Part shown: positions 59,950 to 64,000 of the stretch, in pieces
Layout: the number at the start of each line of letters is the position of its first letter
Position numbering within the stretch: the stretch's first letter is position 1
NCBI GenBank assembly: GCA_021927905.1
Contig: BLLK01000032.1
Coordinates: 265,342-329,341 of the forward strand
Direction: 5' to 3'
Length of the DNA stretch: 64,000 nucleotides
Source: Chaetoceros tenuissimus
Taxonomy: Eukaryota; Bacillariophyta; Thalassiosirophyceae; Chaetocerotales; Chaetocerotaceae
The notes under the pieces: generated by a model
Told to the model about the DNA's origin: nothing
What the model saw: only the letters and a program-made list of their open reading frames with translations
Databases searched by the model: none
Made by a program: the position numbers and the translations under genes

Positions 59950-60557
59950 TCCAGTGTTGTGTTGTGATAAAATCTATCAAACTTTTATGTTGATGCTTGG
60001 ATTGGAGGAAGAAAGGCTTCATTTGGAAAATTCGGTTCAACTCAATCGTTTTTCTCCCCGTAAAAATGTCTACTTCCGCTGGATCATTTTGCACATACAG
60101 TTCAATAGGGAAAAGAAAGAGAAGCGAAGGAGGTGAAAGTGCAGACTACGATGCAGAAAGAATATCTTTTGAAACGCTCCGCTAACGTCAAGTTGTCAGC
60201 TTTTGAAAGTTCAAAAAATGACGCTCACATCATACTCTGATACATCTACTACCTACAGAGAAGATCCAAAAGATATGATTGGAAGTCCTGGACTTGAAAC
60301 AAGTGACGTATATCAAAAAGGAACAGCTGACAGACGAGAGAAAGAATTGAAACGAATGACGTGCTGCAAGCAGAGCCATTGAAATTGTAAGGTGTCAGAA
60401 AGAGGTGTCAGTTAGAAGGTCTTTACTTTACTTCAGCAGTGTGCTCATAGAAAGTCGAAATTCAGTTGTGTGGAAGAATAGCTATCTTGTACTGGAACTG
60501 GAAAGAAAATTTTTACTTTCTCCAAACTAATATAATTTCAAATTCAATCGCTACACC
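59950..60557. other. Upstream region of the retrotransposon-like ORF
   Basis: This may include the element's 5' terminal region. Several TGACG elements (60210, 60303, 60358) and a repeated AGGTGTCAG (about 60390-60412) occur. I could not identify a terminal repeat or tRNA primer-binding site. Confidence 0.35.
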
Positions 60558-62714
60558 ATGTCTTTGTTGGCTGATTTCATTCCTACCGGCCCAGGTAAGC
60601 AACCTGCTAAAGTGCGTGGGGGGGGAAGAGATGATGATGATGATGATGATAATGTCAGTCCTTTCTCTGATTCTTGGACGGAGGCAGGGTCTGCAAACAC
60701 TGCCCCTCCAGTCAGATACGGACGCTGTGTAGCGCTGGTCAATGATCTCGAAGCCTTGTGCTGTGGGAGAATTGGCAACAATGGGAATGTCTTCTGTGGA
60801 GCTGTCGGCTCGAAGGGATGCCCAACCAGCCATGAGAACAAGGTGGCAGTTCTGGAGGCCTGCAAAGCTACAGGTGCTGCTGCCTTGTACTACATGTCTA
60901 GATCTTCTACTAAGGTCAAGCTTTCTGTTGATCCGATGCTGGATGCTGCTAACTTGGATACCATGGAGATTGCTGGACTCCTTCAGGCCAACTTCAAGGA
61001 TCAAGGAGATTGGATGCATGAAGTTGAGGCTAGAACTGAAGCTCTATTGACTGGTGTCTCTCTTGCTATTGCTAGATCTACCGTCAAGAAACCTGCCGTG
61101 TTCAGCAAGATGGACGATGAAGAGGATATGGAGGACGTTGCTCATGGACTGACTGACATGTTCGATAAAGCTGCTCTTAATTCACCTGAGAGAGTGAGTG
61201 ACCAGAAACCAGCTGCTATCGAGCCCAAGGAAGAAGGATGGTTGACGTTAGTGGACAAGCAGATTGAAGCGTGGATGAGTTCTGCTAATCAAAAGCTCGA
61301 GAAAGATGTCGAAGATCTTACTACCAAGTATCAGATGCTTTGTACCCAGGTGGGAAATCCAAGTGTTCACCTCGCAAGAGCAGGGCAATCTATTTGGGAA
61401 GCAATCGAAGATACAGGTGCTCCGGATCTCATGAAGGTAGTACAAGATCCTGTCAAGCTCAAGGATCTGCAAGAGGCTGTATTTCAGAATCAAGACTTCA
61501 AGAAGTATCTCAAATCTACTAAGGATACGGTTCAGAGCATCACCGACAGAATCAGTAAATTGGAGCTGGCTAATGCGAACCAGTCTACTGCCCCTGCTAC
61601 TGCTACTTCTCTTTTTGACAGCTTTCATGTTGGAGTCGCGGCACCACCACCAGCTGCAGCTCCGAATGGAGATACTCTGGCAAAGTTAGCTCAGAAGGTA
61701 GCAGATCTTGAACGAGCTAAGAATGGAAATTCTTCTAGAGGAGAGATCACTGTGGTATTCAAGGATCAGGTATTCACTTCACCTAGAGATGTGCGTTCAG
61801 CTTTCAGAATGAGTCCTACATCTACTTCTCTGGTACGTCTGTCGATGGTCTACGATGCTTACATCCTCTTCGACCTTGTAGCCGACAGAGTATTTGGCTA
61901 TCCAGACGAGAGGAAGTTCTCTCCAGATAAAGCTCACAGGCTTAACAGGAGCGTCAAGGACTTGTTGCATATCCAGTCATCTACCTTGAGTGGGCTACCT
62001 AACTTCTTCGATGGATCAAAGAGCTCAAAGATCTTCATGGATGGCAGTATTAAAGGATCAAAGGCGAGCGTGTTCTCTAACATCAAGTCCCATGATATTT
62101 GGGGACCTATGGGGACTCCAAACAATTGTGTCAGGGTGGCTGCAGAAAGGGCTTTGGATTCCATCAAGCTTGAATACTTGAACAATCCCAGGGAAGGTTT
62201 GGATGCTTCAGTCACTGTACTATTGGATGCCATGCTGGTACGCTCTGTTGAATTCGTCAAGGCTGTGTTTCTCTTTCTCTCCAACGAGTATGAAACACTA
62301 AAGCTGTACTTCAGTGAGGGAGACAAGTGCTGGAATTTCCTATGCAATTGTGTAAAGCAAGTGTTCTCCAGTGAATTCCATGTTGCTAGAGCTGTATCCA
62401 GTTCCGCGGATCATATGAACTGCGACGGAACTAATGTGAATGTGATTTGGACAGCACTGCGTACTATTTCTATCCAAGAAGACTTTCTTCGCGTGGGCTT
62501 TGAGAATCATTCTGGTTTGTCTAGCGCATACTCCCGCTTTATGCTCACTCACATGCCAAATAAAGCAGTGACCAAGTTGCAAACTGAGATGGAGTCTACA
62601 GTGAAGAAGGTAAAGGCAGCGGAGGAAAAGCTGACTAAGGTGGAGGGATTAGCGAACTCGGCTATTTCCAAGGCAGCGGCTGCTGGCGGAGGAAAGAAGA
62701 AGAAGGAGATCTGA
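60558..62714 (+). CDS. Gag-like first ORF of the putative retroelement
   Basis: The 718-residue protein starts MSLLADFIPTGPGKQPAKVR with an eight-residue Asp run soon after. A Cys/His-containing segment follows (LEALCCGRIGNNGNVFCGAV, then KGCPTSHENK). The middle is helical with two coiled-coil stretches (residues about 225-265 and 370-395) and a Pro/Ala-rich linker. The C-terminal domain (about 400-690) is a compact helical region, and the last 50 residues are a Lys/Ala coiled coil ending GGKKKKEI before TGA. No known cellular domain is visible. Size, position before a second in-frame ORF, and the basic tail fit a nucleocapsid-like protein, but this is inference. Confidence 0.6.
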   Translation: MSLLADFIPTGPGKQPAKVRGGGRDDDDDDDNVSPFSDSWTEAGSANTAPPVRYGRCVALVNDLEALCCGRIGNNGNVFCGAVGSKGCPTSHENKVAVLEACKATGAAALYYMSRSSTKVKLSVDPMLDAANLDTMEIAGLLQANFKDQGDWMHEVEARTEALLTGVSLAIARSTVKKPAVFSKMDDEEDMEDVAHGLTDMFDKAALNSPERVSDQKPAAIEPKEEGWLTLVDKQIEAWMSSANQKLEKDVEDLTTKYQMLCTQVGNPSVHLARAGQSIWEAIEDTGAPDLMKVVQDPVKLKDLQEAVFQNQDFKKYLKSTKDTVQSITDRISKLELANANQSTAPATATSLFDSFHVGVAAPPPAAAPNGDTLAKLAQKVADLERAKNGNSSRGEITVVFKDQVFTSPRDVRSAFRMSPTSTSLVRLSMVYDAYILFDLVADRVFGYPDERKFSPDKAHRLNRSVKDLLHIQSSTLSGLPNFFDGSKSSKIFMDGSIKGSKASVFSNIKSHDIWGPMGTPNNCVRVAAERALDSIKLEYLNNPREGLDASVTVLLDAMLVRSVEFVKAVFLFLSNEYETLKLYFSEGDKCWNFLCNCVKQVFSSEFHVARAVSSSADHMNCDGTNVNVIWTALRTISIQEDFLRVGFENHSGLSSAYSRFMLTHMPNKAVTKLQTEMESTVKKVKAAEEKLTKVEGLANSAISKAAAAGGGKKKKEI

Positions 62715-64000
62715 AAGGTCGGGGCTGATGTAGTGCAAGTAAGAAAGGAGGAAGAGTGTAGTGGAACTAAAGTAATCACACCTGTCAACACTCCTCTTTT
62801 CATATTTGCACAACATTGGCCCTCATTGGCCTTCAGTAGTGTGTCACTAGGTTGTAAAAACCTAACGACGGTAGTAGATGACATCACATTGCAAGGCAAG
62901 TTGGAGTTAGAAAAATCACAAATTGGGGTCACAGTTTGTAGAAGGAATGAAACTCTACGGGCATTGCATGCATTCAAGGGATCTTACTGGGTAATGTTAC
63001 AAGGCTCAGTCAATTACCTTGTACAAATTCTCTCTGCTTTACCTCAGGAGATGGCTTCGCAGGCGGTGGTTCTCATAACTAATGGCAACAGGAGAAGACT
63101 GAGAGACTTTGGTTTGAAGCGGTTCACCAAGATTCCTCATAGACATGTGGGTGGAGCATTGGATCACGTATGGTGGATTGGATCAGCCCAAGAACTGCAC
63201 ATTCCAGCTGCTAAGGTGCATGCACAACTGAGAGATATGCTAAAGTGTACGGAGGAAGGAAGCTTCTACTCTGGCGATATGAATACTCCAGCATATATTC
63301 CCTTGGCTAGAATAAATGATCCCGTGATCTGTCCTTCGGTGTTAGTAAGATCTGGGAAGGTGAGGCGAAAGATAACTTCTGCTGAAGCTTTAGATCTGTA
63401 CGATGTTGAAGTGCAGTACCAGCATTTCACATCTATAGATTTCAAGAAGCAAGCACCTGGAAAAATCACGTATGGGTTGATGGAATCGGTGTTGAAAGCT
63501 AGAAGTGTATTGAGTAAGAAGCGTGAAGTAGAAGACACCGGCAGTGATGTACCTTCGGCTAAGAAGGCAAGGGTAACGCAGATACTGGTAGAAGAAGATC
63601 CGCAGATCGAGGATGTAAGGGAGGATCAAACAGTCAAAAGTGCCAAGGCAACCAAATCAGATGATGCCGAGGTTCAAGTGGACATTTGGAACAGACGAAT
63701 GTTTCAAAAGTGTTTGAGTGTTACCTATCAGGCGGATAAGCATGCTAAGATGTGTGATATGCTGCGAAGAGTTATGCTACGTTTCTATCAGAGAAAGATC
63801 TACGCAAGCTTTAGAAAATACCTACACAAGAAGCATGGTACTAAGGCAGTCTCAAGATACCATCAACTCAAGCAGAACATGAAAAAGAAGCTATCTGAGT
63901 TGGAGAAGGATATCATCGTAGGAACAGATGCAATTCGTAGAGCCTCGGAAGCTTCATACTGGGAGTGGACTAGTGGTTCTACACTGTTCTTTTGGCGGTG
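62715..64000 (+). CDS. Second in-frame ORF of the putative retroelement, 3' end outside window
   Basis: After the TGA the same frame stays open for 428 codons to the edge. It begins KVGADVVQVRKEEECSGTKV. It includes a nuclear-localisation-like AKKARV segment and a Lys/Arg-rich helical region (MLRRVMLRFYQRKIYASFRK). It ends at the window edge in ASYWEWTSGSTLFFWRW. The first Met after the TGA is well inside (MLQGSVNYL), so translation likely enters by readthrough or re-initiation. Because it meets no stop before the edge it is easily missed in ORF lists. A reverse transcriptase is expected downstream. Confidence 0.55.

Follow-up and report, generated by a model that had tools for sequence, protein, structure and literature searches.

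Why do two long open reading frames (ORFs) of one retroelement share a frame, with a single TGA between them? The question is raised by the right-hand end of a 64,000-nucleotide stretch of the diatom Chaetoceros tenuissimus (contig BLLK01000032.1, positions 265,342 to 329,341, forward strand; hereafter the window), where a Gag-like ORF1 is followed, after one stop codon, by ORF2, the reverse transcriptase (RT)-RNase H frame of a tyrosine recombinase (YR) retroelement. From comparisons among genomic copies, we consider it likely that this element makes Gag, a Gag-Pol fusion by UGA readthrough, and a YR from spliced RNA. The junction is laid out as follows, with positions counted from the first letter of the window.

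60558 to 62714, forward strand: ORF1, Gag-like, an open reading frame of 718 codons plus TGA
62712 to 62714, forward strand: in-frame UGA between ORF1 and ORF2, TGA in every fetched locus covering the site
62715 to 64000, forward strand: start of ORF2, 428 of its 1275 codons, in the frame of ORF1; whole in 10 other copies

A first-pass annotation, made from the letters alone, had described a 718-codon ORF1 ending in TGA at 62714 whose next codon opens a 428-codon frame in phase, and our coordinates agree. It had also held that such a frame would rarely stay open by chance; at the local base composition we put that chance at about 6e-12 for 428 codons, and, counted from the TGA, a stop already appears at the 6th codon in one of the other forward frames and at the 4th in the other. 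The same annotation saw no further stops over 3.4 kb, which is true of the window copy; among the 12 fetched loci of the same family (family 1) that reach the junction, ORF1 is intact from ATG to TGA in six.

Contig C22 stops at the window edge, and what follows of the element to the right had to be read from other copies. These came from a DNA search of the assembly (41.03 Mb, 68 contigs) with window positions 61500-63500 as query, which matched at least 14 places; the 13 fetched loci L009-L021 make up family 1. Complete copies are about 9.2 kb long (for example L015, 588-9787) and carry, in order, the Gag-like ORF1, the RT-RNase H ORF2 of 1275 codons and ORF3, a putative zinc-finger-YR frame. 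The product of ORF1 would be Gag-like by position only, and a protein family search with it gave no credible match. In ORF2 the RT and RNase H motifs lie past the window edge. Invariant columns of the ORF2 alignment include DIDLGEMF, YxDD and the RNase H-like D897, E941, D967 and D1019, which we take to be RT and RNase H motifs. The profile RVT_1 is matched weakly in two of four ORF2 members (best E 0.0045) and not in L015, and a PDB sequence search with ORF2 gave no credible match. An unrelated gene downstream of the TGA, the case that the first-pass annotation had named as fatal to its reading, is ruled out, as the frame encodes the element's own RT-RNase H.

The TGA is kept in phase in four families

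An ORF2 protein search of the assembly found relatives at 51-52% identity and one at 37-39%. In families 2 (L022, L024, L025), 3 (L023) and 4 (L026), which are at most about 52% identical to family 1, the Gag ORF again ends in TGA with ORF2 in the same frame, in 5/5 loci. The TGA is likewise in phase with ORF2 in 12/12 family-1 loci reaching the junction. In total, therefore, all 17 fetched junction loci of the four families have TGA, always in phase; not counted are L021, which stops short of the junction, L027, in which the junction region could not be located, and L028, which covers just the 5' part. Because members of one family are closely related, these 17 do not count as independent cases. 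The codons neighbouring the TGA vary among copies, and when the family-1 copies were aligned at this codon, as had been proposed, no sense codon appeared in any of the 12 loci covering the site. Judged from these alignments, the TGA is not a recent mutation, and its phase in all fetched junction loci favours the readthrough reading that the first-pass annotation had offered for the arrangement.

The family-4 ORF1 is interrupted in L026 by another in-phase TGA (reverse strand, position 1414), 98 codons upstream of the one at the junction; this is probably decay.

ORF2 protein is conserved ahead of its first AUG in family 1

62799 to 62951, forward strand: ORF2 residues 29-79, ahead of the first in-frame AUG yet conserved between families 1 and 2 (BLASTP E 3e-8)

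ORF2 is open in all 10 family-1 loci that hold it whole, with 1275 codons in nine and 1268 in one; L020 (87% identical, decayed) was left out of this count and of all polymorphism counts, and L019, being out of register, was dropped from the copy polymorphism counts; counts that mixed copies in different register were set aside. Past codon 428, nine copies have 21, 15 and 79 variable sites at the first, second and third codon positions, a third-position bias. The first in-frame AUG of family-1 ORF2 is codon 94 (62994), preceded by four out-of-frame AUGs, and the chance of 93 open codons before it is about 0.004 at the local base composition. This upstream part also appears to be translated. 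Between L020 and L012, codons 1-93 differ at 9, 5 and 20 sites by codon position (p 0.002 versus equal thirds), and among 10 other family-1 copies codons 31-93 have 1, 1 and 6 variable sites; codons 1-30, which hold the hairpin 5' arm and loop, have 5, 4 and 6. Residues 29-261 match family 2 at E 1e-15. Family-4 ORF2 has its first in-frame AUG at codon 61, where the conserved block has already begun. Family 1, and less surely family 4, would therefore need either the Gag frame or a non-AUG start to make the whole conserved protein; for families 2 and 3 the AUG argument does not require it. With the third-position bias of family 1 and the cross-family match, the conserved in-phase stop has a coding signal on both sides, from which the first 52 codons of family 2 depart.

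A predicted hairpin follows the UGA

62716 to 62832, forward strand: long imperfect RNA hairpin, a predicted and likely readthrough stimulator; -51.6 kcal/mol, z -6.34, matched by 0/200 shuffles

Fold z-scores were computed for 121 nt from the UGA. In family 1 they are -6.34 (window), -3.95 (L015) and -5.92 (L012), in family 2 -3.42 (L025), and in family 3 -4.26 (L023). When sliding windows over whole loci were ranked by z in L015, L009, L025, L022 and L023 (L026 was not in this set), the window at the UGA came first of 330 in L015, of 146 in L009 (the window copy) and of 109 in L025; in L023 it was third of 209, the first being an overlapping window. Against nulls of 500 synonymous-codon versions, 0 to 6 versions folded as well in six of eight sequences, with 1/500 for the window copy. 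Changes in the family-1 stem are mostly one-sided and keep pairing in 92.7% and 98.0% of cells (two structure variants), versus 41-53% when slid; the alignment has 12 rows, 5 of them distinct. Of the 37 pairs in family 2, one shows a two-sided change. The distance from the UGA to the stem is 1 nt in family 1, about 5 nt in family 2 and, for the main stem, 8 nt in family 3. The conserved downstream stem that the first-pass annotation had suggested looking for is thus well supported in families 1 and 3, mixed and less clear in family 2, and absent in family 4.

A probable splice from the start of ORF1 to ORF3

60595 to 60600, forward strand: predicted 5' splice site CAG|GTAAGC, 37 nt past the ORF1 ATG, phase 1; best of 522 GT sites in L015

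ORF3 overlaps the end of ORF2 in the +1 frame. Its N-terminus is cysteine-rich and PHD-like (weak profile matches), and it reads ALRGGE, FHVYR and MSQLY in that order. The R, HxxR and Y residues presumably form the tyrosine recombinase motif. By eye, the C-terminus fits the tyrosine recombinase residues, of which HxxR and Tyr are named in the part of PMC8547959 covered here. ORF3 has no Pfam YR match and no credible PDB match. Of the RT, RNase H and recombinase or integrase domains that the first-pass annotation had proposed to search for to the right of the window, RT and RNase H were recovered as motifs, and the recombinase as a fit of residues by eye that Pfam and PDB searches did not confirm.

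For splice-site scoring we used a plain generic consensus rather than one derived from diatom introns. In each element the top-scoring acceptor lies immediately upstream of ORF3, ranking first of 829 AG sites in L015, of 528 in L022 and of 506 in L023. The best donor falls in ORF1 codon 13 to 34, ranking first of 522 GT sites in L015 and of 383 in L022 (a modest score, 5.1); the best donor of family 3 is first of 55 in the 5' part of L028, so that the family-3 pair comes from two different loci (donor L028, acceptor L023). Donors and acceptors are all phase 1 in the three testable families, 1-3, and each leader would therefore join ORF3 in frame. Family 4 is outside this comparison, L026 having neither the ORF1 start nor ORF3. 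The leader donor is present in 11 of 13 family-1 loci and the ORF3 acceptor in 10 of 13, and cross-family similarity of ORF3 starts at the acceptor. A search that allowed up to 3 mismatches found no genomic copy of the spliced ORF1-ORF3 junction, a result that speaks neither for nor against splicing. We conclude that ORF3 is probably reached by predicted splicing from the region of the ORF1 start codon, which the earlier sequence-only annotation had not foreseen.

Two family-1 copies, L010 and L014 (C21:934206-950956), form an inverted pair, head to head, and the exact leader-donor sequence was not found in either.

A model with three products, and what weighs against it

In the model that we favour, Gag would be made from unspliced RNA, and some ribosomes would insert an amino acid at the ORF1 UGA, aided by the hairpin directly after it, to give a limited amount of a Gag-RT-RNase H fusion. 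The recombinase would be made separately, from a spliced RNA that joins the first 12 codons of ORF1 in frame to ORF3. On balance, we also lean towards the broader view that a retrovirus-like programme of three products (Gag, a Gag-Pol made by hairpin-driven UGA readthrough, and a recombinase from spliced RNA starting at the Gag AUG) is older than the split of families that share from about 50% (RT) down to about 25% (ORF2 N-terminus) identity.

Several observations weigh against this model. Families 3 and 4 are represented by one junction locus each, both damaged elsewhere. The hairpin is weak in L022 (z -1.65, rank 9/256, null 29/500) and its signal is absent from family 4 (L026; z -0.77, null 53/500). 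In family 1 the stem shows no two-sided change, and shuffling 3' letters does not separate its pairing, a comparison that is uninformative because the 3' arm hardly varies. The family-1 hairpin also stands nearer to the UGA than is usual for stimulators, 3' readthrough structures typically starting about 8 nt past the stop (PMC3542737, in the part covered). The codon following the UGA is AAG, GAG, GCT or TCT, so that the 3' context is UGA-A/G/U rather than the leaky UGA-C, and neither UGA-C nor CARYYA occurs in the nine junction sequences compared. An in-frame AUG stands ahead of the conserved domain in families 2 and 3, codons 1-52 of family-2 ORF2 change freely (9 synonymous versus 27 nonsynonymous), and the family-4 match to the conserved block is weak (E 0.01-0.2). 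Finally, family 4 has acceptor-like sites after the TGA, one of which (L026, reverse strand, 1877, score 5.8) fits a phase-1 donor.

The AUGs of families 2 and 3, together with the unconstrained first codons of family 2, make reinitiation possible in those families. ORF2 might then be started separately, by termination-reinitiation, leaky scanning, shunting over the hairpin or non-AUG initiation, and a hairpin after the stop also fits shunting, as in caulimoviruses (PMC3542737, in part). We regard a separate start as improbable: the first in-frame AUG lies inside or after the conserved block in family 1 (codon 94) and in family 4 (codon 61, with its weak match), and although reinitiation has no need of a shared frame, that frame is kept in all four families with UGA as the only stop used.

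As the element seems to use splicing for ORF3, alternative splicing might also remove the UGA or join the ORF1 leader to ORF2. Besides the family-4 sites, family 2 has an acceptor-like site in phase, 544 nt into ORF2 (L022 3701, score 5.7), but in both families splicing at these sites, which are within the conserved block or past it, would cut into the block. In family 1 the sole strong acceptor from -300 to +400 nt of the TGA (L015 3549, score 8.5) does not match the phase of the leader donor. No well-scoring in-phase acceptor occurs within 400 nt after the TGA in families 1-3, the best acceptor there scoring 2.6 in family 2 and 0.4 in family 3. Between the leader donor and the TGA, family 1 has no top-five donor and family 2 two weak ones (4.1 and 3.6). 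Such splicing therefore seems very unlikely to us.

That a single stop parts two long in-phase ORFs would also be expected of a recently mutated Gag-Pol ORF, the other reading offered by the first-pass annotation, in which the TGA is a chance mutation in one lineage. We reject this as scarcely credible, since the codon is TGA in 12/12 family-1 and 5/5 other-family loci though neighbouring codons vary. Selenocysteine insertion or a reassigned UGA, to which UGA being the stop at every junction seen might point, can practically be dismissed, as L015, L022 and L023 gave no Rfam match, the selenocysteine insertion sequence (SECIS) included, at E up to 1 (L022 and L023 lacking the 3' end of the element), and in the 2467 codons of L015 ORF1, ORF2 and ORF3 (the last counted from its first Met) TGG occurs 58 times and no other in-frame TGA is present, so that UGA is not an ordinary sense codon here.

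Comparison with known systems

Statements on published systems refer to those parts of the cited papers that were covered. Like Ngaro, PAT and VIPER YR retrotransposons, the diatom element combines RT-RNase H and YR in the ORF order Gag, RT-RNase H, YR, with repeats A1 ... B1 A2 B2 and the internal repeats 3' of the YR (layout in PMC4157794, PMC8547959). Unlike them, its Gag and RT ORFs share a frame and are split by a conserved UGA with a hairpin, and its YR, with a zinc-finger-like N-terminus, lies behind a predicted 3' splice site. Overlapping ORFs and changes of frame are in print for YR elements (PMC8547959, PMC4157794, PMC3266345, PMC6681497, PMC3783388, PMC9210276); neither Gag-Pol stop readthrough nor a spliced YR was found for such elements in the open-licence literature searched, the covered parts of these six papers included.

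In-frame TGA codons between Gag and Pol, with readthrough proposed, are described for the fission-yeast Ty3/Gypsy long terminal repeat (LTR) elements Tosmo1-3, Tcry1 and Tj1 (PMC10085805). These resemble the diatom element in the separating codon and differ in having an integrase, LTRs and a conserved GAA TGA CT context, where the diatom element has a hairpin. A stop codon followed by an extended stem-loop is also the arrangement of alphaviruses (UGA) and epsilonretroviruses (UAG-R) (PMC3542737, Table 5). The next codon in alphaviruses is CGG or CUA, unlike any of the four in the diatom element, and the usual viral spacing of about 8 nt compares with 1 to 8 nt here. Stop readthrough, a device known from retroviruses, was not seen for the YR class in the literature searched. 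The literature covered speaks of overlapping or shifted ORFs in YR retroelements and says very little on how these balance Gag, polymerase and recombinase. If the model is true, the logic of retroviruses was reached in a class without an integrase, and diatoms gain a natural, testable stop-readthrough signal.

Class, repeats and relatives of the element

60087 to 60514, forward strand: terminal repeat A1, at the element's 5' end; in other copies the matching A1/A2 repeats measure 430 bp
L015, 583-1015: repeat A1
L015, 8386-8863: repeat B1
L015, 8859-9291: repeat A2
L015, 9310-9787: repeat B2

The A2 counterpart of A1 lies near the 3' end in complete copies. Both repeat pairs of L015 are 100% identical (A1/A2, 433 bp; B1/B2, 478 bp), so this insertion is very young. 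No target-site duplication was seen in either of the two copies whose ends were both matched exactly (L015, L018). RT with RNase H, and split direct repeats without target-site duplication, are what places an element in the DIRS order, and the repeat layout is that of Ngaro, VIPER and some PAT elements (PMC4157794, in part). These sequence features make the element a young DIRS-order (YR) retroelement whose direct repeats are split. The methyltransferase domain, whose absence sets Ngaro apart from PAT, had no Pfam match in four members, though RT itself barely matches Pfam. No repeats of 40 bases or more were found for family 2 in L022, a locus without a whole element. PDB sequence searches overall returned only chance-like nanobody or transporter matches, a search of IMG/VR for relatives gave 21 pattern matches of which 0 were confirmed, and a bacterial promoter scan of A1 (1 site versus 0.9 expected) was uninformative.

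In two family-1 copies A1 and A2 differ, at 93% identity in L012 (1-432) and 83% in L017 (604-1017), while B1 and B2 are identical. The mismatch suggests mosaic copies or template switching between subfamilies.

Zinc-finger-YR genes also occur apart from the element. L029 (7205-8863, on C16) and L030 (7155-8813, on C54) each hold one with its own ATG and a frame of about 550 codons, and a further gene of this kind lies at C50:102591-104087. The L029/L030 type is 34% identical to ORF3 over nearly its whole length; upstream of these genes there is no forward ORF above 283 codons and no match in the ORF2 search. They are Crypton-like or domesticated relatives of the recombinase, and Cryptons have been reported from a diatom (PMC3212892).

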